64,000 bases of DNA from Flavobacteriaceae bacterium (GTDB taxonomy: Bacteria > Bacteroidota > Bacteroidia > Flavobacteriales > Flavobacteriaceae), in assembly GCA_029243165.1 (NCBI GenBank), contig JAQWSN010000027.1, positions 1 to 64,000 on the forward strand, in the 5' to 3' direction. The notes below the pieces were generated by a model that made no database searches, was not told the origin of the DNA, and was given only the letters and a program-made list of their open reading frames with translations. The position numbers were made by a program, and so were the translations under genes. Shown here one piece after another: positions 6,264 through 58,500 of this stretch (positions within the stretch are counted from its first letter, which is position 1; the number at the start of each line of letters is the position of its first letter).

Positions 6264-6309
6264 GTAATTCAAATTCCTCTTGCTATTTTTGAAATATCAA
6301 ATTACATGT

Positions 6310-9300
6310 ATGCGTTATTTTATTATTAGTTTATCCCTCTGTTTGTGTTTAAATTCCTGTTCTAAAGAGCAAAAGTTATTTAAAATTATAGACCCAAATT
6401 CCTCTCAGATAACTTTTAATAATGAGATAATTGAAAATGATTCACTCAGTATTTTAGACAATGAATTTTTTTACAATGGTGCTGGTGTTGCATTGGGAGA
6501 TCTTAATAATGACGGCTTATTGGACGTTTTTTTTGCAGGAAATCAGGTTGACAATCAATTGTACCTCAATCAAGGAAATCTTGAATTTTCAAATGAGAGT
6601 GCAGCAGCAGGGATTTTAAAGAGTGACCCCCTTATATGGACTTCAGGAGTCAATCTTATAGATATCAATCAAGACGGCTTGTTGGATATCTACCTTTGTA
6701 ATACGCTTCGTAGGGATGAAGTGTTGAGAAAAAACTTACTCTATATCAATCAAGGTCATGACAATAATGGTATTCTAGTTTTTAAAGAACAGGCCTCAGA
6801 TTACGGATTGGACGATACCACTTATTCTTCTCATGCTCAGTTTTTTGATTTTGATAAAGACGGTGATTTAGACGTGTTTATTGGTGTCAATCGAATTGAA
6901 AATATTGATCCTAATGTATTTCAAAATCTTCAAAGTGAAACTGCAATCCTTAGTGTCGATAAACTTTATGAAAATAAAGGGATAGGTGCTGCAGGCCATC
7001 CATTATTTGAAGATATCTCTAAAAAAGCTAACATCAAGCTTCACGGTTTTAGCCATAGTACACTTGTATACGACATTAATCATGATGGATGGCTAGATCT
7101 TTATGTGTCAAATGATTATTTGAGTAACGATATTGCTTATCTCAATCAGGGAGATAAGACATTTAAAAATGAAGCTAGGGCAATGTTTAAGCATTTTAGT
7201 CTAAGTTCAATGGGTAGCGACTTAGGTGATGTGAACAATGATGGTAAATTAGATTTATTTATTTCTGAAATGCAGCCTTATTACAACAAGAGAAAGAAAT
7301 TATTTCAAAAGGGTACGAGCTATACAAAAGAAATTCTTACTCGGCGTTATGATTATGAGTATCAATATCCTAGAAATGTATTACAACTCAATCAGGGAAT
7401 AGACCCCAATTCTAAACTGCCTATTTTTAGTGAAATTGGAATGAGCACAGGATTAGCCGAAACTGACTGGAGTTGGGCTAGCTTATTTGCTGATTTCGAT
7501 AACGATGGTAAAAGTGACTTGTTCATTGCCAATGGTTTTCCCAAAGACGTTATTGATAAAGATTTTGGAGATTTTAGAGTAACGGCCAACCGTCTTGTAA
7601 GCCGAGAAAAACTACTCGCTGCTATCCCTCAAATTAAGGTGCCTAATTTTATTTTTAAAAATAAAGGTGATTTGAAGTTTGAAGACATTTCAGCATCATG
7701 GGGGATTGATTTTGCATCATACACTAATGGTGCGGTGTACGGTGATTTAGACAACGACGGGGACTTGGATCTTATACTCAATAATATAAACGACCCTGCT
7801 ACACTTTTAGAAAATACCCTATCCAATGAAAATGGATTGCATAATTACATTCGATTTGATTTGAAAGGTGATACCTATAATCAGCTTCCTTATGGAAGTG
7901 AATTAAGAGTGTTTTCAAGGGGTGAAACTCAGACACAAATTCTAGAGTCTGGTAGAGGCTATTTATCTCAAACAGAACAAATTTTGCATTTTGGTTTAGG
8001 TGATCTAGAAGAAGTAGATTCTATTGAAGTTCGATGGTATGATGGGAACATTCAGAAATGGAAATCACTCCAAGCGAATACTACCCATGAATTAATCTAT
8101 CAACCAGAATCTCTAATCGAATCATTTCAAGAAGAAAAAGACTTATTATTCAATCAGGTAAATGAGGATTTAATGTTGACATATAAGGATGATGATGATG
8201 ATTTTATTGATTTTAACGTCCAAATAACCATTCCTTACAAGCTTTCACAAAGTGGACCTGCTATTGCTGTGGGAGACTTAAATAGTGATGGTCTAGAAGA
8301 CTTATTGATTGGGGGGAGTAGAGGAAAAAAAGAGACTATTTTTTATCAAAAAAGCGACGGGACATTTACCAAAAAAACACAATCCTTTAAAAGCCAACCA
8401 CGAGATTTAGAAGAAGATGTTGGCATAGCATTATTTGATGTAGAAAATGATGGAGATTTAGACATCTATTTTGCACATGGATCAGCACAGTTTTCACCAG
8501 GTTCAAAAGCTTATGATGATGGGCTATGGCTAAATCAAGGAAATGGAAATTTTATTCAAGCAAAGATTAGCCTTCCAAATCTAGGAGAGAATAGTTCTTG
8601 TGTCAAACCTGGTGATTTTGACAATGATGGCGATATGGATTTATTTGTGGGTAATAGAGTGGTTCCTGGACAATATCCAGTAGCAAGTCGTTCGTACCTT
8701 TTGGAAAATAAAAGTAAAGGAGATAAAATAAGTTTTGTTGACGCTTCAGAAAAAATTAGTACGGGTCAAACACCCTTAGGACTCGTTACGGACGCCCAAT
8801 GGACAGACTTTAATAACGACGGTTGGAAAGATTTAATTGTCACTGGGGAATGGATGTCACCCCTTTTCTTTGAAAACAATCAGGGCAGGTTAGTCAAATT
8901 AGATGATACAGGTGTGGAGTGGGCTAAAGGGTGGTGGAAGAGTATAGCATCTAGCGATTTAGACAACGATGGAGATCTTGATTATATCTTAGGGAATTTT
9001 GGTAAAAACACCTTTTTTAAAGCTTCTCCAGAAATGCCCCTAAATATAATTGCAAAAGATTTTGACAAAAATGGCAGTGTTGATCCTTTTATTTCCTTTT
9101 ATGTCCGAGATAGTCTTGGAACCAAACGAGATTATCTGTATCATCCTTGGGAAGATATGATCAAGCAGTTTAGAAAATTGAGAAAAGAATTCAACTCATA
9201 TACTGCCTATGGAAGCGCAACAAAAGATCAGATTTTTTTCAATCAAGACCTAACAGCATCTTTGATGAAAAGTGTAAATTGGATGGAGACCTCTTGGGTT

Positions 9301-9858
9301 GAAAATTTGGGCGAAGGAGAATTCAAACTTCATTCTTTGCCGCTTCAGGCGCAATGGGCTCCAGTTTACGGAATCAATGCATTTGATGTTAATCAAGATG
9401 GGTATGACGACCTTCTTATGGTAGGTAATGATTATGGAATTGAAGTAAATCAAGGTAGAATGGATGCTCTTCAGGGCTTGGTTTTGATTAATGATCAATC
9501 AAAGAATTTTATAGCTCAAACAATTGAACAAACAAATTTTATTGTTCCTAGAGATGGAAAGAGTATAGCACAAATTAAAGTAGGGTCAACCCCTTATTTT
9601 CTAGCTACTCAAAACAATGACAGCCTTAAAGCTTTCAAGCCAATATTCAAAGAAACTCCCTTAATGATGTCTTGGAGTGCGGAAGAAACGAGCTGTTTGA
9701 TTTATTATAATTCAGAAACTACCCACCGTAAATTCAAAGGAAACTTTAGTTTTAAGTCCCAGGGTACACCTACTTTTTGGATTTCAAAAAAAGCAAAAAG
9801 GGTTGAATTTTTTAATGCTAAAGGACAAAAACTGAGAACTGAAATTCTAAATGAATAA
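6310..9858 (+). CDS. FG-GAP/VCBS repeat lipoprotein with ASPIC/UnbV domain (CRTAC1-like)
   Basis: A very large exported lipoprotein (1182 residues from this start). The ATG at 6310 is chosen because it begins a clean lipoprotein signal (MRYFIISLSLCLCLNSC); an in-frame earlier start would put polar residues ahead of it. Repeated calcium-binding blades follow, each with a D-x-N-x-D-G-x-x-D-L/I core, for example DLNNDGLLDVF, DINQDGLLDIY, DFDKDGDLDVF and DLDNDGDLDLI. A central ASPIC/UnbV-like domain (roughly residues 520-600, with ESGRGYLSQTEQILHFGLG) separates two propeller sets. Proteins of this type often accompany SusCD in marine Bacteroidota and probably bind or process glycans at the surface; their activity is not settled. 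A terminator lies between it and susD, so it may have its own promoter. Confidence 0.88.
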   Translation: MRYFIISLSLCLCLNSCSKEQKLFKIIDPNSSQITFNNEIIENDSLSILDNEFFYNGAGVALGDLNNDGLLDVFFAGNQVDNQLYLNQGNLEFSNESAAAGILKSDPLIWTSGVNLIDINQDGLLDIYLCNTLRRDEVLRKNLLYINQGHDNNGILVFKEQASDYGLDDTTYSSHAQFFDFDKDGDLDVFIGVNRIENIDPNVFQNLQSETAILSVDKLYENKGIGAAGHPLFEDISKKANIKLHGFSHSTLVYDINHDGWLDLYVSNDYLSNDIAYLNQGDKTFKNEARAMFKHFSLSSMGSDLGDVNNDGKLDLFISEMQPYYNKRKKLFQKGTSYTKEILTRRYDYEYQYPRNVLQLNQGIDPNSKLPIFSEIGMSTGLAETDWSWASLFADFDNDGKSDLFIANGFPKDVIDKDFGDFRVTANRLVSREKLLAAIPQIKVPNFIFKNKGDLKFEDISASWGIDFASYTNGAVYGDLDNDGDLDLILNNINDPATLLENTLSNENGLHNYIRFDLKGDTYNQLPYGSELRVFSRGETQTQILESGRGYLSQTEQILHFGLGDLEEVDSIEVRWYDGNIQKWKSLQANTTHELIYQPESLIESFQEEKDLLFNQVNEDLMLTYKDDDDDFIDFNVQITIPYKLSQSGPAIAVGDLNSDGLEDLLIGGSRGKKETIFYQKSDGTFTKKTQSFKSQPRDLEEDVGIALFDVENDGDLDIYFAHGSAQFSPGSKAYDDGLWLNQGNGNFIQAKISLPNLGENSSCVKPGDFDNDGDMDLFVGNRVVPGQYPVASRSYLLENKSKGDKISFVDASEKISTGQTPLGLVTDAQWTDFNNDGWKDLIVTGEWMSPLFFENNQGRLVKLDDTGVEWAKGWWKSIASSDLDNDGDLDYILGNFGKNTFFKASPEMPLNIIAKDFDKNGSVDPFISFYVRDSLGTKRDYLYHPWEDMIKQFRKLRKEFNSYTAYGSATKDQIFFNQDLTASLMKSVNWMETSWVENLGEGEFKLHSLPLQAQWAPVYGINAFDVNQDGYDDLLMVGNDYGIEVNQGRMDALQGLVLINDQSKNFIAQTIEQTNFIVPRDGKSIAQIKVGSTPYFLATQNNDSLKAFKPIFKETPLMMSWSAEETSCLIYYNSETTHRKFKGNFSFKSQGTPTFWISKKAKRVEFFNAKGQKLRTEILNE

Positions 9859-10146
9859 ACCATTGAAGATCAAATTAGTTTTACTTACAGCTCTTGCCTG
9901 CTTTTTTATCCTATGAATTTTTACAGAACGAAATCAAATTTTGAATAGAGCCGAGTAGCAAGATCGTCTTCAAGGATTTTGGATGACAAAATGCATTGCG
10001 AATTGGACAGGTTTGATCACCGAATTGCATAAAATTGGAATCTCAGTAGATGGGAAGGGGGGAAGAATTTTATACCCATGATAATTGGATGAAGCACAAT
10101 CAGCCCAATTTGTAAGGATCCAATAACTATACCGACACCCTAACCC
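9851..10146 (+). pseudogene. Decayed 5' fragment of an ADP-ribosylglycohydrolase-family gene
   Basis: An ATG overlaps the end of the preceding gene and starts a signal-peptide-like stretch (MNKPLKIKLVLLTALACFFIL) that stops at a TGA (9914). Read on in the same frame it gives RAE-stop-QDRLQGFW and then CIANWTGLITELHKIGI, which matches the intact protein at 23.1 kb (RAAYLDQLEGFW, CIANWTGLITEMDKIGI). After a frameshift near 10063 the match continues as FYTHDNW and NQPNL-stop-GSNNYTDT, where the intact copy has FYTREDW and NQPNLWGSNNYSDT-like residues. So at least three stops (9914, 9956 and the TAA replacing Trp) and a frameshift inactivate it, and the rest of the gene is missing. It was probably the last gene of this operon. 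Confidence 0.88.
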
Positions 10147-17726: not shown

Positions 17727-19106
17727 GTGAAAAATTTTTCAGATGGCTTTTTTTCAGTAGATGCAAACAGTGGTTTTTTACCCATAGAGGAACCCTTGCG
17801 AAAGTTGCCCGATACCTATGCTGAATTACAATCTCTTTTAGACGAAATGCCCGTGGTTAAAGACGATGGAAGCCCAGGCTTATTGGCTACAGAAAGGGCA
17901 TTAGAGCAAGCTACTGAAAGATTGCCAAATTTTTTAAATCAAGTAAAAAAGGAAAAAGATCCAAGGGTCAAAGCTGCCTTATTTAGGGGCTACAGCTTTT
18001 TGGCATCCGCCTACACCCTATCCCCTGCCCATCATACCTATTTAAAAACAGGGAAATACGGACTGGCAAACAAAAAAATTCCCCCAACCCTTGCCCAACC
18101 TTTTGTGGTCATTGCAGAGGCTTTGGAAGTATTCCCCTGGTTGGATTATCATTATGCCTACTCCCTAGGAAACTTTTACAAAAAAGAAGAAACCAAAGGC
18201 TGGGACTGGTCCAATTTATCCATGGCGGTCAAATTTTCAGGAATGCCTGATGAACAAGGGTTTATCATGCTTCATGTAGACATCAATCAGTACTCCCCCA
18301 ACCTAGTAAAAGCTGCTTTGGGACTAGCAGACTACCCTACCGATGAAATAAACGCAAATCTTGAGCTGTTCGGAACGACTTTACAAAAAATGAACGAAAG
18401 ACGCAGACTGATGTGGGAAGCCTCTCGATGGAAACACTACAATGATTTCCGAGTGTTTATTATGGGAACTAAAGGAAATGTAGATATTTTCCCCGAAGGA
18501 CTCATTTACGAAGGGGTTTGGGATACTCCGCATACGTACCGCGGTCAAACTGGAGCGCAAGACAATATCATTCCTACAGCAGATATTATTTCTGGAGTAA
18601 TCAATTACTACCCAAAAAATCAATTGACAAATTATCTTCTTGACCTTAGAACCTACCGCCCAAAATGCGTTCAATCCTTTTTTCATTTTATTTCCAAAAA
18701 AATGGATCAACACCCCCTATTAAAAAGACTGGTCGATTCTAACAACTTGGAGGGAATGGTTCACTTAATGAAGGTTTTTGAAGAAATTTATCTCTTCCGA
18801 AACGGCCACTGGCAGTTTGTCCAAAAATACATCATGCAAAATACCGCCTATCCAAAAGCAACTGGAGGCACCCCCATTACCTCTTGGATTCCCAATCAAA
18901 TTAAAGCTGTGCTAAGAGCAATGAAGGTTTTGTTCGACAAAATGAAAGATCACCAAAACCCCAACTGGAATCAATCCGAATGGTTGGAATCCTACAACAA
19001 AAAAGTTCAACTACTCAATAAGCAACTTAAAATTGTTTCAATAGAGGCCTTTGATCCTGAAGCGGTTTTTGACTTAAATGAAAAAATGGGATATCAAGAT
19101 TTCTAA
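17727..19106 (+). CDS. Indoleamine 2,3-dioxygenase-family heme enzyme
   Basis: A 459-residue all-helical heme dioxygenase of the indoleamine 2,3-dioxygenase (IDO) family, which opens the indole ring of tryptophan or related compounds with oxygen. Family landmarks: RGYSFLASAYTLSPAHH near residue 90, FRVFIMGTKGN and FPEGLIYEGV in the middle, TGAQDNIIPTAD, and the proximal heme-ligand region RNGHWQFVQKYI with His361. The gene starts with GTG (MKNFSDGFF); no suitable ATG lies nearby. Nine bases after its stop begins the single-domain asparaginase, so the two probably form an operon. True tryptophan activity is not certain, because bacterial IDO-like proteins vary in substrate. Confidence 0.82.
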   Translation: MKNFSDGFFSVDANSGFLPIEEPLRKLPDTYAELQSLLDEMPVVKDDGSPGLLATERALEQATERLPNFLNQVKKEKDPRVKAALFRGYSFLASAYTLSPAHHTYLKTGKYGLANKKIPPTLAQPFVVIAEALEVFPWLDYHYAYSLGNFYKKEETKGWDWSNLSMAVKFSGMPDEQGFIMLHVDINQYSPNLVKAALGLADYPTDEINANLELFGTTLQKMNERRRLMWEASRWKHYNDFRVFIMGTKGNVDIFPEGLIYEGVWDTPHTYRGQTGAQDNIIPTADIISGVINYYPKNQLTNYLLDLRTYRPKCVQSFFHFISKKMDQHPLLKRLVDSNNLEGMVHLMKVFEEIYLFRNGHWQFVQKYIMQNTAYPKATGGTPITSWIPNQIKAVLRAMKVLFDKMKDHQNPNWNQSEWLESYNKKVQLLNKQLKIVSIEAFDPEAVFDLNEKMGYQDF

Positions 19107-19115
19107 TACGAACCA

Positions 19116-19610
19116 ATGAAAGTAAAAATTCTAGTTACAGGTGGAACTTTTGACAAAGAGTACAACGAAATCAACGGCAAGCTTTATTTTAACAAAACCC
19201 ATGTCCATGAAATTTTAGCTTTGGGCAGATCGGATGTTGCGGTCGAAATAAAAACCTTGATGATGGTGGATAGTTTAGACATGACAGATCAAGATCGGGA
19301 AGTCTTGGTAAAAAACATTTCGTCATCCAAAGAAAAAAACATTGTAATAACCCACGGAACCGATACTATGGTAGAAACCGCAAAATACATAAACAAGAGG
19401 GCTATTGACAAAACCGTTGTAATCACTGGTGCCTTGATTCCCTACAAATTTGGAAGTTCAGACGGCCTTTTCAATTTGGGTGCTGCACTCGCTTTTGCTC
19501 AAGTATTAAAATCCGGTGTTTATGTTGCAATGAATGGAAAATGGTTCCCCTGTGATGGGGTAGAAAAAAATAAAGAAACAGGAAAATTTGTCAAGCTAGG
19601 GGCTTCCTAA
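19116..19610 (+). CDS. Single-domain asparaginase-like protein
   Basis: A 164-residue protein equal to the N-terminal catalytic domain of bacterial L-asparaginases. It keeps the nucleophile region LVTGGTFDK (Thr11) and the second triad strand ITHGTDTM (Thr82, Asp83), followed by VVITGALIPY. The usual C-terminal domain of about 130 residues, which completes the active site of the partner subunit, is absent, and the stop is clean with no coding remnant behind it. Such short forms occur as natural proteins, so this need not be a truncation. It could hydrolyse asparagine or another amide. It follows the IDO-like gene by nine bases. Confidence 0.78.
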   Translation: MKVKILVTGGTFDKEYNEINGKLYFNKTHVHEILALGRSDVAVEIKTLMMVDSLDMTDQDREVLVKNISSSKEKNIVITHGTDTMVETAKYINKRAIDKTVVITGALIPYKFGSSDGLFNLGAALAFAQVLKSGVYVAMNGKWFPCDGVEKNKETGKFVKLGAS

Positions 19611-19722
19611 ATAATCCTCTCCAAAATTCAATCCCCAGTTCCCTTAGGGTCAAAAGGAGAAACTCCACATGCGTTCCTTTCCTAGACTCTTCGTCTTGAG
19701 CCTAATCAGAACCCGTTTGATT

Positions 19723-20406
19723 TTAAATTGAGAGCGATTCGCCAACATTTAAGAGCACCAACTCTTTGCCTTTGTCTTTGAAATATTTAACCGCTTTGGG
19801 CTTGTCAATTTCAATGGGGGGAAATGTATCAAAATGATACCCAATTATTGTATCACAACGAATTAGATCGCTGGCAATCAGAGCATCCTCATACCCCATT
19901 GTAAAATTATCTCCAACAGGTAATAGTGCAACATCAAGTTTTGGACAAAGTAACGGAATCAGTTCCATGTCTTTGGTCAAGGCGGTATCTCCAGCAACAT
20001 AAAGAGATTTGGAGTCATCGTACAGTACAAACCCCCCGGGGTTTCCTCCATAGGTGCCGTCTGGTAAAATACTGGAATGGACCGCGTTTACGTACTTGGC
20101 CGTCCCAAAATCAAATTCGTATTTCCCCCCGTGATTCATCGCATGGCCAGAGATGTTTTTTTTACCAAACCAAGAAACAATTTCAAAATTTGATACCAAA
20201 AGAGCATCCGGATTGTTTTTCATAACGGCTTCCACATCTAAAACATGATCTTCATGACCGTGGGTTACAAACACATAATCCACAGCCAAATGCGAAATAT
20301 CAATATGCTGGGACAGCGAATTCCCTGTGATAAACGGATCGAATAGAATTTTTTTTGAATTCATTTCAACAAGAACGGTTGCGTGACCTAAAAAAGTAAT
20401 TTTCAT
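19723..20406 (-). CDS. UPF0173-family metal-dependent hydrolase
   Basis: A 227-residue metallo-beta-lactamase-fold protein of the UPF0173 family. The metal motif is VTHGHEDHVLD (H-x-H-x-D-H). Further ligands are expected in AMNHGG, the aspartate of YVAGDTAL and the His of IGYHFDTFP. The opening MKITFLGHATVLVE and strand ILFDPFITGN are typical of the family, and length is standard. No signal peptide, so it is cytoplasmic. Substrate is unknown for this family. It converges with the asparaginase-like gene. Confidence 0.88.
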   Translation of the reverse strand: MKITFLGHATVLVEMNSKKILFDPFITGNSLSQHIDISHLAVDYVFVTHGHEDHVLDVEAVMKNNPDALLVSNFEIVSWFGKKNISGHAMNHGGKYEFDFGTAKYVNAVHSSILPDGTYGGNPGGFVLYDDSKSLYVAGDTALTKDMELIPLLCPKLDVALLPVGDNFTMGYEDALIASDLIRCDTIIGYHFDTFPPIEIDKPKAVKYFKDKGKELVLLNVGESLSI

Positions 20407-20738
20407 ATTTGTTTGATTTAAAGAGTTTCTATCCCCAATGGGCTCCTCAAGTTTTCGTCATTCTTTTTGTTTTTAATAGCATTGGGGTTCCTCCTGTTTC
20501 GGATCTTCTAAAAAGATACAAAAGATTTCTTTTGTTTTGTAAAGTCGCTACCAAGCAATAGAAACAAAAAATTAGATAATTCATTTTTGCTTCGCGTTTG
20601 TTTGGGCTAACAAATTGTTATTTCTATCTTGAGGATCAAATCTCAGGGCACTGATATTTTTAAAAAAAAAATTGAACTAGAAAATCATTGGTACGCTTGT
20701 ATGCAAAAGTGAACTAAAAGGGTTTAAAACCATCCTAT
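20407..20738. other. Intergenic region between divergent genes
   Basis: About 330 bases with no convincing reading frame or RNA. It must hold the promoters of the metallo-hydrolase (minus) and the unknown exported protein (plus). No clear Bacteroidota -33/-7 pair was found. Confidence 0.4.
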
Positions 20739-21770
20739 TTGATAAAACATCTCACGTTTTTATTCTTCTTTTTCCCCTTGCTTTCTATGGCTCAAGTGGG
20801 CTTAAACAACGCTTTTGATTTTAGGAGCATTGACAATTTGTATTTTGACGAATCAACAAAAGTAGAGGAAGAGACCTTGGGATCTCCCTTTTTAACACCT
20901 CTTATTGACGGTTACAGATACAACTCATTTTTAGACATTATTGTAAACTCCCAAAATGAAATCGTAACTATTTCTGAGCTCCAATTGGGTAAATACAACT
21001 TTGTCAAAAAAGATTATTTCGTCCGTTGGAAGAAAAAAGCAACAACGGGTTACTTAATCAAAATTGACGAAACCAGTTTTTTGAGGGTTCAAAAAGTAAT
21101 CCGCGAAGACTACAACCCAAAACTGAAAAACAATTCCAACAAGAGGTACGAAGAAAAAATCAGTTACTTCAAAAAAGAGGATGGAAAAATAAAACAGGTC
21201 AAAAAAAATGAAAACGCCAAAGGCAACTTCTTTGTGCATCTAAACTACATCCAATCCAAATTGAATAATTATTTGGGAGGCTCTCTAAGTAACAGAAATT
21301 CAGTTTATTACGCTTTTGGCAGATCCTTTCGTTTAACTCCTTCAAACGCCCTAAAAAGCAAATTCTTTTTTTCTAAAAATGGGGGATTCGATTGGTACAC
21401 CGAGGACAACTACAACGGTAAAAAGATCATTACACTGAACACCGTAGGACTTGAACTGCTTTATGAAAAAAGCTACAAACGATTCAGTTTTTTTTCAGGA
21501 ATCAAATCCCATTATGCCCTCAAAAGAGAGGAACGAAGAGCGAGCATCCGCTACTACGGCTTCCGTTTGAGAGACAAATACCAATCGCTAAACGACGAAC
21601 TCAAAAAATTTATCCCCATCTCCTTACCCCTGGGATTCTCCTTTGATCTAATTGAGGACATTGATTTTGAACTGATTTACAATATTGGAGTTTCAAAACT
21701 CAATGCAGCCCCTGCAGAAATTAATTTAACCCTAAATACCTTTCAGGCAGGGCTGGTTTACAAAATCTAA
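20739..21770 (+). CDS. Exported protein of unknown function, possible outer-membrane barrel
   Basis: A 343-residue protein I do not recognise. It begins with TTG and a clear signal peptide (KHLTFLFFFFPLLSMAQ). The first half (to about residue 165) is rich in Lys and charged residues, with strands such as ISELQLGKYNFVKKDYF. The second half alternates aromatic and polar residues and ends in TLNTFQAGLVYKI, the pattern of a transmembrane beta-barrel with a terminal hydrophobic strand. An outer-membrane location is therefore inferred. Confidence 0.55.
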   Translation: MIKHLTFLFFFFPLLSMAQVGLNNAFDFRSIDNLYFDESTKVEEETLGSPFLTPLIDGYRYNSFLDIIVNSQNEIVTISELQLGKYNFVKKDYFVRWKKKATTGYLIKIDETSFLRVQKVIREDYNPKLKNNSNKRYEEKISYFKKEDGKIKQVKKNENAKGNFFVHLNYIQSKLNNYLGGSLSNRNSVYYAFGRSFRLTPSNALKSKFFFSKNGGFDWYTEDNYNGKKIITLNTVGLELLYEKSYKRFSFFSGIKSHYALKREERRASIRYYGFRLRDKYQSLNDELKKFIPISLPLGFSFDLIEDIDFELIYNIGVSKLNAAPAEINLTLNTFQAGLVYKI

Positions 21771-21871
21771 AAAGAGCATTGAGCCTCCTCCTAAAAACAA
21801 TACTTTACCGTTTGAGCTGCAGACCAAACTTTAACCGCATCCGTTTTGTTTTTTTGTTTCATTGTGGCTAA

Positions 21872-21907
21872 AAAATTAAATACTTATTTAAATAAGTATT
21901 TAATTTT
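21872..21907. repeat. Perfect 36-bp AT-only-rich palindrome
   Basis: Every base from 21872 to 21907 pairs with its mirror partner, with no spacer; the core is TACTTATTTAAATAAGTA, containing the only G/C pairs. It lies between two convergent genes, at the left border of the GC-richer island. It could work as a bidirectional terminator (flanked by A and T runs), a protein binding site or a cruciform. A short hairpin AAAACGCTTT-like segment follows at about 21914-21935. Confidence 0.85.
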
Positions 21908-21975
21908 AACTCCCAAAAAACGCTTTGGGGTGGCGGGTTTTTCGCTACTTTTTCAAAACCGACTAAGGGGACTCC

Positions 21976-22173
21976 TCACTTAAAAAAAGAAGACGTACCG
22001 ATCCTTTCCAAAATCAACTGTTTGCGTCTTTTTCTCATTTTGATCCGAACCTCTTCCCCCTTTTTCGAACCCAGTTCTTCCAGGTACTCCACCGGTAGGG
22101 TAATACACAAGCTGCTTTGACCTACTTCAATAATCTTGAGATTAAACCGTTCTTTTAATGATTTTCTTGCCAT
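21976..22173 (-). CDS. AbrB/MazE-like (SpoVT/AbrB) DNA-binding protein
   Basis: A 65-residue protein with the swapped-hairpin AbrB pattern: LKIIEVGQSSLCITLPVEYLEELG, then KKGEEVRIKMRKRRKQLILER. This fold binds DNA as a dimer in transition-state regulators and in antitoxins. No toxin gene lies next to it; the neighbour is divergent. A basic, Lys/Arg-rich tail follows. Its start lies 72 bases from the divergent nuclease gene, so it may regulate that gene as well as itself. Confidence 0.75.
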   Translation of the reverse strand: MARKSLKERFNLKIIEVGQSSLCITLPVEYLEELGSKKGEEVRIKMRKRRKQLILERIGTSSFFK

Positions 22174-22245
22174 GGCTAACGATTTGAATGAACATTAAAG
22201 TTACTACCAAAACGCTTATCTTGTAAAAACAAAACTCAAATTATC

Positions 22246-22569
22246 ATGTACACCTACAAAGCCAAAGTACTGCGTTGGGTAGATGGCGATACCCTGCTGT
22301 GTCTGATCGATCTGGGCTTTTACACCCACAAAGAAGAACGCATTCGCCTGGCCCGTATTGACGCCCCCGAACTCAGAGGCCCTGAAAAAGAAGAGGGCAA
22401 ACGGATTCAGCAACTGCTTAGCCAGCGCTATCCGCAAGGAACCTTTCTTACCTTGGAAAGTAAAAAAAGAGACAACTACGGCCGTTTTATCGGCGAACTC
22501 TATTACCATGAGCAAAGCATCAACCAATGGATGATTGACCAAAAGCTGGCCAAAGAAGTCGATTACTAA
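22246..22569 (+). CDS. Staphylococcal nuclease-like (thermonuclease) protein
   Basis: A 107-residue OB-fold nuclease of the SNase family, which cleaves DNA and RNA with calcium. Active-site features: VDGDTL (metal-binding Asp), ERIRLARIDAPELRGPEK (catalytic Arg and the Asp-Ala-Pro-Glu signature) and the second Arg in NYGRFIGELY. There is no signal peptide, so unless exported otherwise it acts in the cytoplasm; it is also shorter than typical secreted nucleases. Base composition is clearly GC-richer than the flanks. It probably forms an operon with the next gene, 17 bases on. Confidence 0.85.
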   Translation: MYTYKAKVLRWVDGDTLLCLIDLGFYTHKEERIRLARIDAPELRGPEKEEGKRIQQLLSQRYPQGTFLTLESKKRDNYGRFIGELYYHEQSINQWMIDQKLAKEVDY

Positions 22570-22586
22570 CTCCAAAACAACTCCTC

Positions 22587-22985
22587 ATGAAACTCCAAAA
22601 AACAAACCTCCGAGGTTTTGTACTTTTCCCCATCTCGGTCATTCTGCTTTTGACCACCGTTTGGCTCGGACTTGCCTATGCCGCCATTACCCTGCCCTTT
22701 AAACTGTCTTTCCGTACCCTGATCCAGCGATGGAATCAGTATTTTTTTGTCTTGGCAGTGTCCCTAGACCAGTTTGGCAATGTAGCCATGCAAGACCTTT
22801 TTAACGATTGGCTGCTACGCCCCAACGCCCCACACCGCTTTGGCAACGAAGACGAAACCATCTCCAGCGTATTGGGCAAAAACAAAACCACCCACAGCCT
22901 GAGCAAAACGGGTACCCTCCTTGCGGATTTCCTCGATTGGCTCGACCCCAACCACGTCCTCAACTCCATTGAACCCTTACCTTAA
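22587..22985 (+). CDS. Small membrane protein with DETISS motif, possibly phage-related
   Basis: A 132-residue protein with one strong N-terminal membrane helix (FVLFPISVILLLTTVWLGLA) and a second weaker hydrophobic stretch. Its C-terminal half has DQFGN, GNEDETISSVLGKNK and LDWLDPNHVLNSIE. From memory the combination DQ-GN, DETISS-x-x-GK and D-x-x-H-x-x-SI recurs in small proteins of tailed-phage genomes, but I could not check this. Codon use and GC content match the preceding nuclease gene and not the surroundings. Function unknown. Confidence 0.62.
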   Translation: MKLQKTNLRGFVLFPISVILLLTTVWLGLAYAAITLPFKLSFRTLIQRWNQYFFVLAVSLDQFGNVAMQDLFNDWLLRPNAPHRFGNEDETISSVLGKNKTTHSLSKTGTLLADFLDWLDPNHVLNSIEPLP

Positions 22986-23061
22986 AACCCTCAGCCAATT
23001 TATCAAGCTGAATGCATCTAAAAAAAAATCTTAAATTTAAATGACTAAAAACCCTAGTAAA

Positions 23062-24348
23062 ATGAAAAAACAATTCGCATTCGTAGCATTACTAGCCCTA
23101 TGCATTCAGTGCAGCACTACAAACGACCGTTATGTTACAATTGACAGAGCAGCCTATTTAGATCAATTGGAGGGGTTTTGGCTGGCGCAATGCATCGCAA
23201 ATTGGACGGGACTCATTACCGAGATGGATAAAATTGGAATTCCGGTAAACGGCAAAGGGGGCGGTTTTTACACCCGAGAAGATTGGGGAAAACCCGACCA
23301 ACCCAACCTGTGGGGATCCAATAACTATTCGGATACAATCACCTTTATTTTCGCTGAAAAAGACAGCATTTGGGGCGCCGATGACGATACCGATATCGAA
23401 TACATTTATCAAGAGTTGCTCTACAAAAGTCCCTCGTTGGATCTCAGCGGAGAACAAATACGAAAGGCTTGGATGGATCACATTCACAAAGAGGAGGAAA
23501 ATTATTTATGGGTATCCAATCAGCAAGCTTTCGACCTGATGCATGAAGGAATTGTTCCTCCTGCTACCAGTGACCCCAAGCGGAACCCTCACTATGAAAT
23601 GATTGATGCCCAACTGACTACTGAAATTTTTGGTTTGTTTGCTCCTACAAAACCTCAAATTGCACTCAAATTGGGAGCACTGCCCATAAGAACCACCGCC
23701 CGCGAAAATGCTGCGTGGATTTCTGAATTCAATATCATTATGTATTCTCTGGCCTCCCAAACCACCGCTCACAATTCAATAAAAGAAAAGATTTTGTGGA
23801 TGGCAAAACAAGCGCGTTTGCAGCTTCCTAATGATGCCTATTCCGCCAAAATGTTTGATTTTGTTTTAGAGCAATACAATCAAAACCTACCCTGGGAAAA
23901 AACGCGTGATGCATTGCACGAGAAATATCAAATTCGTCAAGAAGATGGCTACCATTGGGCCACAACAGATCAAAGTTGTAACGGTTGTTTTGCCGCTGGG
24001 ATCAATTTTGGAGCCAGTATTGTCAGTTTACTTTACGGAGAAGGAGATTTGAAAAAAACAATCCAAATCGGAGCTTTAGCAGGATGGGATTCGGACAATC
24101 CTACGGCTACTTGGGGAGGAATGTTAGGGTTTATGCTAGGTAAAAAAGGGGTTGAAAAAACCTTTGGAAGGGAATTTTCTTCTTCCTTCAACATCCATCG
24201 TACCCGAAAGGGCTTCCCTAATGGAGGCATCGATACGTTTGAAAATATGGCACTCAAAGGGCAGTCCATTGTAGATCGGGTAATCCAAGAAAAAATGGGA
24301 GGTAAAATTGATGCTGAAAAGGACATTTGGCTGATCCCAAAAGAGTAA
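23062..24348 (+). CDS. ADP-ribosylglycohydrolase-family exported protein
   Basis: A 428-residue protein of the DraG-like ADP-ribosylglycohydrolase fold. The ATG at 23062 starts a signal peptide (MKKQFAFVALLALCIQC) that may be a lipobox, though Gln before the Cys is unusual; an in-frame ATG at 23041 is also possible. Family features: LEGFWLAQCIANWTGL near the start, metal-binding ADDDTDIEYIY, TTARENAAWI, and the C-terminal ALAGWDSDNPTATWGG, which corresponds to the metal-binding D-x-D-N/T loop. Being exported, it is unlikely to act on ADP-ribosylated cytoplasmic proteins and may cleave another N- or O-glycoside; that is inference. The decayed copy at 9.85 kb is a paralogue. Confidence 0.85.
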   Translation: MKKQFAFVALLALCIQCSTTNDRYVTIDRAAYLDQLEGFWLAQCIANWTGLITEMDKIGIPVNGKGGGFYTREDWGKPDQPNLWGSNNYSDTITFIFAEKDSIWGADDDTDIEYIYQELLYKSPSLDLSGEQIRKAWMDHIHKEEENYLWVSNQQAFDLMHEGIVPPATSDPKRNPHYEMIDAQLTTEIFGLFAPTKPQIALKLGALPIRTTARENAAWISEFNIIMYSLASQTTAHNSIKEKILWMAKQARLQLPNDAYSAKMFDFVLEQYNQNLPWEKTRDALHEKYQIRQEDGYHWATTDQSCNGCFAAGINFGASIVSLLYGEGDLKKTIQIGALAGWDSDNPTATWGGMLGFMLGKKGVEKTFGREFSSSFNIHRTRKGFPNGGIDTFENMALKGQSIVDRVIQEKMGGKIDAEKDIWLIPKE

Positions 24349-24366
24349 AAAAAGTTGCCTTGAAAA

Positions 24367-24897
24367 TCAATTGTAAGGCTTTAATCGTATTTGAGAAATC
24401 CCCCCTAGAAATCGGTTGACACACATAGGTGCCGGATGAAACGGATTGCCGGATTGGGTGATCCCGATACTGTAGCAAGATACCTTAGCTTCTTTAAAAA
24501 GTTTTAAAATTTTTAGGGCTTGTTGTTCAAGATACAGATGATCGTCGATGTGGTTGCCCCAGCAACAAACTACCTTTTTAATTTTGTATTCAGGATTTTG
24601 GATCAAGGCTTCTATGAATCGGAAATTCTGTTCGATCAGTTTGAGGTTGGGGGTTTTAGGCAAATCCTTTGGCTTGGGTGTCCGCTTGGGATAGAGGTTG
24701 ACCAACCACCAGCCGTCGCAACCGTTGTTTTTTGCAATGCGTTCAATGTTTCTTGAGGTAGGATCTAATTTGGTTTCGTTGGCCCTACTGGGGTTGAGAC
24801 CAATCGCCAACATTTCAGCCGTTCCTTTCTTTCCTAATAAAAATCTTTTCTCAGGATCGTTAAGGGGTAAACACACAATATTACTAGAACCCATCAT
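24367..24897 (-). CDS. DUF1643 family protein
   Basis: A 176-residue cytoplasmic protein of the DUF1643 family. Typical features are IGLNPSRANETKLDPTSRNIERIA, then GWWLVNLYPKRTPKPKDL and VVCCWGNHIDDH, and a late ITQSGNPFHPAP, where His residues and Trp-Gly recur across the family. Biochemical role is unknown; members have been linked loosely to DNA or nucleotide metabolism and are often found on mobile elements. It converges on the preceding gene with only 18 bases between. Confidence 0.8.
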   Translation of the reverse strand: MMGSSNIVCLPLNDPEKRFLLGKKGTAEMLAIGLNPSRANETKLDPTSRNIERIAKNNGCDGWWLVNLYPKRTPKPKDLPKTPNLKLIEQNFRFIEALIQNPEYKIKKVVCCWGNHIDDHLYLEQQALKILKLFKEAKVSCYSIGITQSGNPFHPAPMCVNRFLGGISQIRLKPYN

Positions 24898-24976
24898 GCT
24901 ATTTCTAAAACTCTATTTACATTTGATTTTGTATTCGAACCAATTGAAATACAAATCAAGATAAAAGATTCTGAAA

Positions 24977-25165
24977 ATGGAATTATTGGCCTATTTTTTA
25001 GCATTGTTTGGTTTTTTTGTACTGGTTAAAGGAGCGAAACCCGCCCTGGATTGGATTGGGCGGCATACAGCTAAAGATCTTGCAAAGGGCATCGGATTCA
25101 TTGCGGTGGTACTCAGCCTTTTCTTTTATGTATGGGTCATGTTCGGCTATTTGAAAAGTTTTTAA
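24977..25165 (+). CDS. Small two-helix membrane protein
   Basis: A 62-residue protein with two hydrophobic helices (LLAYFLALFGFFVLV and GIGFIAVVLSLFFYVWVMFGY) separated by a basic loop (RHTAKDLAKG). ATG start; divergent from DUF1643. No recognised family. The regular helix-loop-helix plan and typical codon use support a real gene. Confidence 0.6.
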   Translation: MELLAYFLALFGFFVLVKGAKPALDWIGRHTAKDLAKGIGFIAVVLSLFFYVWVMFGYLKSF

Positions 25166-25230
25166 AAAAACAGTCAAAACATCAAAAAAAGACCCAAAAA
25201 AGTGAAAAATAGGGCAAAAAACAGTCAAAA
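25165..25230. repeat. Two short direct repeats in an A-rich spacer
   Basis: The 15-base AAAAAACAGTCAAAA occurs at 25165-25179 and 25216-25230, between two convergent genes. The surrounding bases are A-rich with short G islands. No stem typical of a terminator was seen. Probably low-complexity sequence. Confidence 0.6.
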
Positions 25231-54406: not shown

Positions 54407-54655
54407 ATGAGAAATTTAACATTTATATTTTTTTTAATATTGTTTATATTCACATCATCTAAGCCAGCTATATCTGAATCATCAAGTCAACGTGATTTAG
54501 TTTACTTGTGTTCCCATCCTAGTGTGAAATGTTATTACAAGGAACCGTGCAGACAATTCTTTAAAGTTTGTACAGATTCTAATTCAAAAATTATAAAAGT
54601 TTCTGAGTCTAGGGCGAGAGCTATGGGAAAAGAAGAATGTGAATGTGAAAAATAA
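54407..54655 (+). CDS. Small exported cysteine-rich protein
   Basis: An 82-residue protein: signal peptide (LTFIFFLILFIFTSSKPA), then VYLCSHPSVKCYYKEPCRQF, CTDSNSKIIKV and MGKEECECEK. The mature part has six Cys residues. The order VY-x-C, K-x-Y-x(3)-PCR, IIKVSESRA and a terminal Cys resembles small flavobacterial proteins with V-Y-I-C and C-R-x-L repeats that bind metal, but the match is from memory. Likely disulfide- or metal-stabilised in the periplasm. Confidence 0.6.
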   Translation: MRNLTFIFFLILFIFTSSKPAISESSSQRDLVYLCSHPSVKCYYKEPCRQFFKVCTDSNSKIIKVSESRARAMGKEECECEK

Positions 54656-54664
54656 AACGTAAAA

Positions 54665-55558
54665 TTATTCTTCCTCTACAACCTCTTTCTGAGCCTTGCT
54701 CAGATTATACTTAATTAAGACTTCGTGTGTTTTCAGACCAAGACTATTAAGATTATTTTTTAAAGACATTTCGTAAGAGTAGCCTAAAGTAAATTGATTT
54801 AAATTCAATAATACTAAAGGGCTTATTGTATTTGATGTACTGTAATTAAATCCAAGTTCAAAATTTTCGTTAAAGTCTAATGAAATATTTGTCATTAACA
54901 AAGACTTACTTTCTCTACTTGATTTTAAAAGGATATTGGTTTTTAGATTTAGACTTTCAGTTACAGATAATTTATATCCAGTACCAATAAACACAGGGTT
55001 TACCTTAGATCCATAGAAAACTAGATCTTTATTTTGGTTAGAAAACATTCTCGGTATAGAGAAAGAGAAGTAAAATCTTGGAAGCTTTAAAAGTAAACCT
55101 ACACCAAGATTGGGAAAAAATCTTACGGAATTATCTAAAGCTGGATCAAAAACTTCTTGATTAGCAATATCGCTTAAATCTGCTTTTGAAAAATCAGATC
55201 CTCCTTTGATTCCTAGAAAAAGATGTTTATCTGAACTAAAATCTAATTTATAAGAAAAATCTATGTATGAAATTGTTCTACTTTCTATAAAATTTTTATT
55301 CGAGTATATCGAAAGTCCTAGACCAACATTATTTTTTCTCGAAGAAGAAATAGTTAAGAACTGACTTTTTGGTGAATTTTCAATTGCAGCCCACTGATTT
55401 CTTGAGACTAATGAGATTTCATTGGAGAAATTTGACCCAGCATAGGCTGGATTAAAAAAGTTCATTTGATTGAAAAAAAAAGATAGATTTGGATCTTGTT
55501 GTGAATAAGTCTCAATAGTAACCAAGAATAATAGTATGAAAAAAAATTTAAAATTCAA
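54665..55558 (-). CDS. PorP/SprF-family T9SS outer-membrane protein
   Basis: A 297-residue outer-membrane barrel of the PorP/SprF family, which helps export or anchor T9SS cargo with a type B sorting domain. It starts with TTG (NFKFFFILLFLVTIETYSQQ), three bases after the giant gene's TAG and in the same frame, with no ATG that would give a signal peptide. Family landmarks: QQDPNLSFFFNQMNFFNPAYAGS, ISYIDFSYKLDF and repeated Gly/aromatic strands to the end. Together with the giant gene it forms an operon, cargo first, transporter accessory second. Confidence 0.85.
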   Translation of the reverse strand: MNFKFFFILLFLVTIETYSQQDPNLSFFFNQMNFFNPAYAGSNFSNEISLVSRNQWAAIENSPKSQFLTISSSRKNNVGLGLSIYSNKNFIESRTISYIDFSYKLDFSSDKHLFLGIKGGSDFSKADLSDIANQEVFDPALDNSVRFFPNLGVGLLLKLPRFYFSFSIPRMFSNQNKDLVFYGSKVNPVFIGTGYKLSVTESLNLKTNILLKSSRESKSLLMTNISLDFNENFELGFNYSTSNTISPLVLLNLNQFTLGYSYEMSLKNNLNSLGLKTHEVLIKYNLSKAQKEVVEEE

Positions 55559-55561
55559 GCT

Positions 55562-58500
55562 CTATCTTGTTATATAAATCCACCCTTGCATGTCCACAGC
55601 TCCATCCATATTGAGATCTATTATAAATAAGTAACTGCCTTCAGGTAGCGGAAAATTATCTTTATTTGTTCCTTGCCAATCATTTTCATAAGGACTGCTA
55701 CTAAAAACTTCATTACCTGAGACGTCATATACCCAAACCTTATTTAAAGGATACCTTATGATTTCTTTGAGGTACCAAGAATCGTTGATACCATCTCCAT
55801 TTGGACTAAAAAACTTAGGTAAATCTGGGAGAATGAAATTTGAGTCATTTTCAATAAATTCTTGGTCAGGATTATATAAAAGTGGTGCATTATCAAATTC
55901 ATTTGGAACATTATCTCCATCAACGTCAGAATCAAAATCATCAGGAACAAAATCATTATCGAGATCTGCTGGAAAACTATTAGAATCTAACGGATCAGTT
56001 CCCAATAATTCCTCATCAAAATTTGAATATCCATCGTTATCTCGATCTTCATCTGAATTGTCACCTATAGAGTCTCCGTCTGAATCTAACCATTCAAATG
56101 GGTTATTAGGGAATTGGTCATTCTCGTCCTCATATCCATCGTTATCATCATCAAGATCGGCATTATCACCAATACCATCTCTATCAAAATCAGAGGATTC
56201 ATTTGGATCATTTGGGAACATATCTTGTATGATATAGTCATCTTCCCAATTTACACTAATATCGTAAAAACCATCATTGTCATCATCAAGATCTGAATTA
56301 TCGGGTATTCCATCATTATCATCATCTTTCCATTCTTCTGGATCAAATGGAAATAAGTCTCTTATATTTAGATAGCCATCATTATCTGAATCATCATCGT
56401 AATAATCTAATATCCCATCATTATCAAAATCTCCAGGGAAGGATCTAAAATCAAATGGATCAGTTCCCATAATTATCTCGTCAGTATCATTGAATCCATC
56501 TCCATCTGTATCAGTCAACTCGTCCCTTTTAATAACACCATTAGATGAAGGAGTAGCCTCTTCAATAGATACATTTCCATTTTCATCAACCAATATTTCG
56601 AAAGTTTCGTCATAATAAAGGCCTTCCCAGTCTGTTGCTCTAATTATAACTGATTTCACCACATTAGCTTTTCCACTAATATTACTGAAGTATAATTTAT
56701 TGTTTTTAATTGAGAAAATATCTCTATTAGGGGAAATTTCTGGTATTGAAGCAGTTAAATTATCTTCTTCATCATTATCAGCCATTTTAATCCAAGAAAT
56801 TAATTCTCCTTGCTTTTTACCTACATCTGGCAAAATAATATCAACTGGAGGTTCATTTACATCGACCAGAACAAAATTCAGGAAATCTGTTTGAGTATCA
56901 TTTGTGTCTAAATGGTTTACAAATGATGCTGTTTTATTTTCTTGAAATTTAGCTTTAGTTTTTTTGACCTTCCACTTACCTACATTAGCTTTTTTTGTTG
57001 GGGAACTATTCCCTTTTCCAGTCAAATTATCTTTTATTTTTGAAGGTTCAGATGATTGAATTGTACCCCCAAAATTTTTAGACGTAGATGGATATTTGGA
57101 AGTAATCGAACCATCAAAATTCAATTTTTCAATATAATTAAATAAAAGTTCACTAACGGTTATGTATTCTCCATCTTCAGATGTTTGAATAATACCATTT
57201 GCATCACCATATTCAGTATTTAATTCAACAGCATTGTTCTTTAAATTTCCAAGAGCCCCTAAATTTCCTAATTTTTGATATCCCCAACCCCATAATACAT
57301 TAGAATTATTATCATTTACTGTTTTTGCAATTTGAAAATTATAACCTCCAACAATTTTATCCCATTGGAAATTCTCAAGATTTCTCAAAGTATTATTCTC
57401 TTCATCATAAAAAACAGGATTCGCAATAGCTGTTGGTATTGGTTTATCTAAATTGTCCCCTGTAGCCAAAGAACCGAGATCATTATCCCCAAAATTATAC
57501 ATCATTCCATCTTGGGTAATCACAAAACTACTTTCAGCGGATGCATTAATTTCCTTAACTGCTTTATCGCTAAAGAAAGTAACTTCAGTTGGGGTGGTTA
57601 TTGTTTCACCAAATTTGTCATAAGTTATTACTGTTGATTCTGAAAAGGTTCCCTCAAAGGTTCCCTGTCCAGAAGATTCAAGTCCTACTAGTTTTTGTTT
57701 TGTCTCAGATTTTGTAAGCCCTAATTGACCTTGACTATTTTCGCCCCATGAATAAAGTGTATTAGAATTGGTAACAGCTAAAGCATGTCTTCCCCCTAGA
57801 GAAATATTTTTAAAAATATTTTCTTCTGGGGTAAATACATTAACTAATGTTCTGAAAGACTGTTGGTCATCAGTACATTCTGGATCGTGAAATCTTTGTT
57901 TAATATTACTCTCTGATGTGTTAGAAGCAGTAATTGATTTTGAAAAGAAAAAGGCAGATTGAAAGTCTTTTGTTTTATTTTTGATTGACAACATGTTGGA
58001 TGTTGCTGTTCCGATATCTTCAAAAACAAAATTTCTATCAATTTGTCCAGATTCTTGTGCATACCTTAGCTTTGAAATTAAATTATCAATTGCCTTTTGG
58101 CTTGCTTGATAATTAGTTTTCAAATCAGCATTATTAATTGTTTCTCTAAAAAATACTTGATCTAAAATTAAGCTATATTCAGTAGAGCCATAATAATTTT
58201 CTCTTAAAACTTCATATGTAATTTTGTCTATTTTCTTTTTGGTTCCAATTGTTGTGGTAACTGTATCATAAAAATCATCATCGTTGGATGGAGATTTTAA
58301 AGTAATTTTTGGATTGAAAGGACCAAACTTTAATTGTGTGAAGATAAATTCTTTTTTACCATTAACATCATTAATATTAATTGCGGTGTAACTTGAAAGA
58401 CCTGAAGTGTTTCTAAATTCAACTAAAAAATCTGTCTCAAATTGATCTAAACTTCCTTTATATTCAACCCCTATTTGATAAGGACCTAAGCCGAGAGAAA

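Follow-up and report, generated by a model that had tools for sequence, protein, structure and literature searches.

A staphylococcal-nuclease gene, a DETISS gene and a divergent AbrB-like gene in a Flavobacteriaceae genome: probably an accessory patch and not a dedicated system

Introduction

Each part of the locus described here has a counterpart elsewhere. Staphylococcal nuclease (thermonuclease) is the counterpart of a small homologue (SNase) that carries a PF00565 domain scoring over the cut-off and retains the aligned catalytic residues. The AbrB/MazE DNA-binding proteins are approached by a 65-aa protein, through a partial profile match over residues 12–59. The third protein, DETISS, has two sets of relatives. 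One is the phage proteins of unknown function in PHROG 3342, whose profile it matches. The other is a group of chromosomal Flavobacteriaceae proteins encoded beside ftsE, ppgK, and typA, which belong to the same family at about 40–49% identity. Finally, a palindrome near these genes resembles the REP-type dispersed palindromes in being a short intergenic palindromic repeat present in several copies.

The genes lie in the window, by which we mean the whole 64,000-nucleotide stretch analysed (positions 1–64000 of one contig of G000, a 2.09-Mb draft genome in 34 contigs). The original prediction was that they could be a small acquired defence or mobile module in a GC-richer micro-island. The explanation that fits best, and that we consider on balance the probable one, is an accessory patch peculiar to this species, at a rearranged locus, that forms no dedicated system. 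SNase and DETISS would be orphans of different descent, joined in a probable operon and accompanied by a divergent orphan AbrB-like gene. As a module, such a patch of accessory genes is of little importance. The DETISS family is more worth following, since it combines strictly kept residues and a confident structure model with no PDB match and no Pfam entry.

Layout of the Locus

The three predicted open reading frames are all present. The AbrB-like gene (21976–22173, minus strand; 65 aa, with sub-cut-off Pfam and TIGR matches) is divergent to the SNase gene (22246–22569, plus strand; 107 aa, identified by PF00565, PHROG 452, and alignment with thermonuclease). The DETISS gene follows (22587–22985, plus strand; 132 aa, identified by PHROG 3342), and its product has a hydrophobic N-terminal helix and a conserved polar C-terminal part. 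The end of SNase and the start of DETISS are 17 bp apart. This spacing suggests a single operon, which the two genes probably form. The 72-bp divergent intergenic region (22174–22245) is presumed from its layout to be a promoter/operator, and the divergent position of the AbrB-like gene suggests that it controls this region. A sigma-70 scan found no promoter in it. On the other side of the AbrB-like gene, two short hairpins (21910–21955; two plus-strand stems, z -2.0) lie between convergent genes and might be a terminator region. However, a consensus terminator scan found nothing there, which makes that reading weak. To the right the patch is flanked by a gene for an ADP-ribosylglycohydrolase (ARH; 23041–24348, plus strand), with DUF1643, a small protein, and M24 next in order.

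Composition

The genome-wide GC and codon scan proposed with the original prediction was run on a 464-kb sample (22%) of the same genome, taken from contigs picked by hand and therefore non-random, with a mean GC of 37.4%. The three local GC values behind the prediction were reproduced (56.7% at 22801–22860, 53.3% at 22261–22320, and 38.3% at 21481–21540). The stretch from SNase to DETISS (22246–22985) has a GC content of 48.9%, which none of the 2442 windows of 740 bp in the sample reaches. The GC3 values of SNase (0.546) and DETISS (0.609) exceed those of all 322 sampled ORFs of at least 150 aa, and the highest other value among 367 ORFs of at least 100 aa is 0.458. Synonymous codon use is also deviant relative to the 322 ORFs (z -5.5 for SNase and -7.25 for DETISS), with the caveat that short genes are noisier. 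The SNase reading frame itself rests on homology, because the longest-ORF rule by which the ORF list was made chooses an antisense ORF instead.

It is clear that SNase and DETISS are outliers, but the AbrB-like gene is not GC-rich. Its GC content is 39.4%, its GC3 is reached by three of the 322 ORFs, and its codon use has a z of -3.9. The adjoining 21872–21975 has a GC content of 33.7%. The anomaly is therefore that of the SNase-DETISS pair. Its edges are gradual as well. GC3 is elevated as a gradient across 17.7–25.2 kb, at about 0.37 to 0.45 around the peak, and declines gradually away from the pair (ARH 0.413, DUF1643 0.452). There is therefore no sharp 1.1-kb island. In other words, GC3 climbs to a peak at the patch, with no island edge on either side. 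The five-gene mean GC3 of 17727–25228, graded on either side of the pair, is the highest of the sample. At the far end of the window (54407–64000) GC3 is low, at about 0.21, and a 2812-aa ORF continues past the window end.

What if the slope has nothing to do with import? In three same-genus genomes ARH and DUF1643 have GC3 values of 0.22–0.26, in loci of 31–33% GC. A regional effect may contribute to the raised GC3, and the gradient over shared neighbours may reflect regional mutation or recombination rather than acquisition.

Distribution and Flanking Synteny

Neither SNase nor DETISS has a match in any of the 36 other same-genus genomes searched. These are drafts, 54–98% complete, so a single absence means little, but absence from 36 of 36 is still telling. 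Together with their outlying composition, this supports acquisition of SNase and DETISS, and separate acquisition would be the best account. This is the part of the original prediction that survives. Among 60 relatives, DETISS occurs in its own genome only and SNase in its own and one other, a distant member of the order.

The opposite possibility is that the genus ancestor already had the patch and that every other sampled species has lost it, in which case its composition would reflect a regional GC bias. Small SNases do occur in 24 other genomes of 397 from the family (an in-frame stop interrupts two of them), many Flavobacteriaceae have DETISS on the chromosome, and the neighbouring genes share the raised GC3. 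By the PHROG model, 17 of 395 genomes of the order, G000 included, have a DETISS homologue, which leaves room for an old presence followed by many losses. We nevertheless hold ancestral genes to be quite unlikely, given the 36 same-genus absences of each gene, GC3 values above every sampled ORF, and an SNase that stands apart from the chromosomal SNases of the family (see below).

Among the ARH loci fetched from 20 relatives, three from the same genus share the order ARH, DUF1643, small protein, and M24. Upstream of ARH, G026, G002, and G006, which have the downstream order in common with the window, carry genes other than those found there; these genes are the same in G002 and G006. In four relatives the left neighbour, MBL, is found in different surroundings, and one of these loci is cut by a contig end. 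No clean empty site for the patch was found, and the differing genes on both sides therefore indicate a variable junction instead. A foreign fragment joined during assembly or binning is an extremely improbable source of the patch. It would account for a composition outlier within a 34-contig draft, but the patch sits well inside a contig at least 64 kb long, its downstream genes are syntenic with the three same-genus genomes, and composition grades away on both sides.

Two other observations concern the flanks. A degenerate ARH fragment (9875–10145) lies directly after an FG-GAP/ASPIC gene (6280–9858), and in G033, G032, G012, and G005 an intact ARH sits after the FG-GAP/ASPIC gene; the intact ARH of the window is at 23041. 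No viral relative was found for the gene at 20739.

The Nuclease Gene

The 107-aa protein scores 37.4 bits against PF00565 (cut-off 21) and matches PHROG 452 with E=1e-27. The Ca-binding and catalytic residues of staphylococcal nuclease are D21, D40, R35, E43, and R87 (staphylococcal numbering). In the alignment with thermonuclease these positions are filled by D15, D39, R34, E42, and R80, and the position of T41 by Ala. The original prediction described a nuclease without a signal peptide, and the N-terminus is not strongly hydrophobic. Kept catalytic residues and such an N-terminus make a cytoplasmic nuclease likely.

In a tree of 78 rows the SNase of the window groups with six phage rows (98/85), and its sister is the row of Arthrobacter phage Abba (97/75), although its branch is long (1.43) and its placement unsure. 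Another set (100/98) unites eight small chromosomal SNases of the family with five phage rows, and one more genome row, L076, lies among phage rows. In Abba the SNase homologue is encoded between holin and lysin genes (L338, 1193–2799). The neighbours of the phage kin are mixed. By eye, the same lipoprotein-like neighbour is present in 18 of 25 small-SNase loci. SNases were matched in 615 named phage records, more than 500 viral contig stretches, and 708 plasmid records (37.8% identity among the 15 plasmid matches listed). A literature search on SNase with AbrB in flavobacteria found no paper.

The DETISS Family

The best family match of DETISS is PHROG 3342 (E=2.2e-6). Two other PHROGs of unknown function match more weakly, and 67 of 69 aligned family members match the PHROG 3342 model. 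No Pfam family was matched at E 0.001. The alignment of the 69 sequences has twelve invariant columns. Invariance of the six ETIS..G.N columns is partly by construction, because the motif belonged to the search pattern; nine sequences obtained without that pattern likewise show no variation at the six. In the distant PHROG 3342 matches L060 and L061, N replaces the E of ETIS. The window protein has one strongly hydrophobic stretch, at about residues 11–36, and its structure model (mean pLDDT 93.7, pTM 0.81) consists of a long N-terminal helix and a helical C-terminal part. Foldseek found no match to this fold in the PDB at E up to 0.001, and VIA-align returned a single row (Z 2.4). Three viral models without a function match the fold at E up to 1e-3. 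Among the titles listed by a literature search on the family labels, none concerned the family, and a search on domesticated lysis genes with ftsE found no paper. DETISS is an unstudied family common to phages and bacterial chromosomes, with a predicted membrane topology.

In phages, DETISS was found in 48 named records (44 of them Flavobacterium phages) and in 289 viral contig stretches. In a Muminvirus, DETISS immediately precedes holin and amidase genes. However, a general lysis-cassette rule is too strong and was rejected. Among 55 scanned neighbours (52 picked by hand from 256, representing 23 of 80 viral loci, and three from Muminvirus) a few are holins, amidases, or peptidoglycan hydrolases, and others are tail, methylase, or nucleotide-metabolism genes.

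The relation between the phage and chromosomal members was examined in a tree of 101 rows. Near-copies had been removed, and 12 of 172 rows had been left out because the matched stretch contained stops, which in most cases probably lie ahead of the true start. Rows were labelled chromosomal or phage by collection, except that the genome loci L066, L073, and L074 were put with the phages on account of their neighbours. A branch supported at 88/72 splits chromosomal from phage rows, in an unrooted tree of few columns, and the chromosomal members look like one clade. The window row is sister to L100 (UBA4439) and L102 (100/97), followed by L097 and L098 (98/93). The DETISS genes of L100 and L102 have GC3 values of 0.57 and 0.61. 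The phage-like motif of the original prediction is right as regards the PHROG 3342 match, but the nearest relatives of the window protein are chromosomal. A recent transfer of DETISS from a phage was rejected on this placement, albeit on a fork of only 88/72. By their trees, then, the ancestries of the two genes differ, DETISS falling in a chromosomal Flavobacteriaceae clade and SNase among phage SNases.

Could both genes nonetheless be the remains of a phage late region, left by a decayed prophage and now kept or drifting? Both families occur in phages, and the Muminvirus and Abba arrangements place each of them next to lysis genes. On the other hand, the window DETISS does not fall with the phages, nothing beside the patch matched a structural, integrase, or lysis family, no examined phage locus has both genes, and the neighbours of phage DETISS are mixed. 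We therefore regard a prophage remnant as unlikely.

Among the best 80 of 156 DETISS genome loci, 63 have at least one of ftsE, ppgK, typA, and a TPR gene nearby, and in 44 of these 80 ftsE lies upstream on the same strand. The computed gap between ftsE and DETISS is zero in 13 of the 80, which are L121, L123, L126, L127, L132, L135, L139, L148, L158, L159, L163, L168, and L174 (abutting or overlapping by a few bases). The two ORFs also overlap by a few bases in L072. The DETISS ORF exceeds 200 aa in 43 of the same 80 loci, and a long DETISS ORF fetched separately (L067) has a NUDIX domain. Because of the ftsE-adjacent genes, a connection of the cell-division machinery with a functionally uncharacterised phage protein can be tested directly.

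The AbrB-like Gene

The 65-aa protein matches Pfam MazE_antitoxin (PF04014) with E=1e-4 and TIGR02609 with E=1.5e-4, and both scores are below the curated cut-offs (22.5 against 24.7 bits and 22.0 against 55.9). A single-sequence structure model (pLDDT 62.6), inspected for the swapped-hairpin fold of AbrB/MazE proteins, is mostly helical where structured. A toxin-antitoxin system would have an adjacent toxin, but no toxin family was matched among the three genes or the scanned flanks. At E up to 0.01, the gene has a match in one of 397 family genomes, its own (a draw from the family that holds part of the 36 same-genus genomes). None of 34 viral pattern stretches gave a confirmed homologue, and phage matches were partial only (E at least 0.06).

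The Palindrome

The original prediction had the island start at a 36-bp palindrome. The palindrome (21872–21907) is real, perfect, and AT-only, and folds as a 16-bp hairpin (-15.5 kcal/mol, z -6.5). However, it is a dispersed repeat. Its 24-bp core has five exact sites in G000, each at the centre of a near-identical perfect palindrome of 34–38 bp, with unrelated flanks. The other four copies are in L004, L005, L006, and L007, at about 1494–1531. With ORFs read by eye, none of the five lies within a gene; four separate convergent genes and the fifth separates divergent ones. Because it occurs at five unrelated places, the palindrome marks no island edge, and a role as boundary or attachment site was ruled out. 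The repeat may perhaps serve as a terminator in both directions or as a binding site for a protein.

Two more near copies fall within ORFs, and one of these copies also occurs in G021. At up to two mismatches, 60 genomes yielded only the own genome and that coding near copy in G021, with no exact copy in the relatives, and a 28-bp core had no exact match among viral contigs. The longest palindrome in a 2-Mb Markov control was 24 bp. However, two other perfect palindromes, 30 and 34 bp long and different in sequence, are present in the 464-kb sample, which means that this repeat is not the only long palindrome without a loop.

No Sign of a Recurrent Defence or Mobile Module

The defence and mobile parts of the original prediction fared less well than acquisition. 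PADLOC (library 2023) gave no match at E up to 0.001; the best was SNase against part of the SNc+LTD model (E=0.0032), followed by the AbrB-like protein at E 0.03, with no match for DETISS. Pfam scanning of 14 window ORFs matched no integrase, transposase, relaxase, or defence family. The window has no tRNA, and its repeats besides the palindrome are short and two-copy only. An origin from a plasmid was rejected, with no plasmid match for DETISS (E up to 0.1) or the AbrB-like protein (E up to 1).

The same trio was also sought elsewhere, and no second instance was found. Searches of 160 DETISS loci of 3–12 kb each (the best 80 of 156 genome matches and the best 80 of 289 viral matches) gave no SNase or AbrB match at E up to 0.01. 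Likewise, neither DETISS nor AbrB was matched in any of 120 SNase loci at E up to 0.05. Two 12-residue DETISS matches in SNase loci (E 0.42–0.46) were taken as chance. SNase was matched in one of eight genomes searched for a common donor, that of L101 (E 7e-7). Such a donor of both SNase and DETISS was rejected, as the genomes of L097–L100, L102, and L136 are without an SNase match.

It is thus very improbable that the patch is a small anti-phage or anti-plasmid module in which AbrB controls a nuclease and a membrane protein. With no stronger defence match than that of SNase, no defence family among the scanned neighbours, no recurrence as a unit, and ancestries that differ, this reading was set aside. 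It does draw on the layout of regulator, nuclease, and membrane protein, on a patchy distribution, on the phage kin of two of the genes, and on the weak PADLOC match itself.

Possible Function and Comparison with Known Systems

How might an accessory patch of this kind work? A dimer of the AbrB-like protein would bind the 72-bp divergent region, probably repressing a shared promoter region. The SNase, with its catalytic residues intact, would cleave nucleic acid in a Ca2+-dependent manner. The N-terminal helix of DETISS may anchor in the inner membrane, and its conserved polar C-terminal part might then act at the envelope. Several points argue for caution about an acquired patch, namely the draft state of the same-genus genomes, the unsure SNase placement, the 88/72 fork in the DETISS tree, an AbrB-like protein below its cut-offs, and a junction where no clean empty site was found.

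A bolder idea, which we offer as a long shot, is that the DETISS family represents a hitherto undescribed envelope protein and that it crossed a single time between phages and the chromosomes of Flavobacteriaceae. On the chromosomes it would work with FtsE (FtsEX) in the control of peptidoglycan hydrolysis, whereas phages would use it to tune lysis. The species of the window would then have brought a relocated copy together with a nuclease of phage type in a new operon under AbrB control, so that opening of the envelope is tied to DNA degradation.

Returning to the accessory patch and its described counterparts, the differences are as follows. Unlike REP-type palindromes, the repeat is AT-only and loopless, has five copies, and is without an exact copy in the searched relatives. 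The 65-aa protein stays under both curated AbrB/MazE cut-offs, with no toxin-family neighbour matched. Compared with staphylococcal nuclease, the window SNase is a 107-aa protein without a strongly hydrophobic N-terminus, and it clusters with phage SNases. The PHROG 3342 phage proteins differ from the window DETISS in that the latter is of the chromosomal clade and has no recognised lysis or tail gene beside it. Finally, in contrast to the ftsE-linked DETISS proteins, the window copy is without a NUDIX extension and, together with its nearest rows L097, L098, L100, and L102 (50–57% identity), lies away from the ftsE locus.
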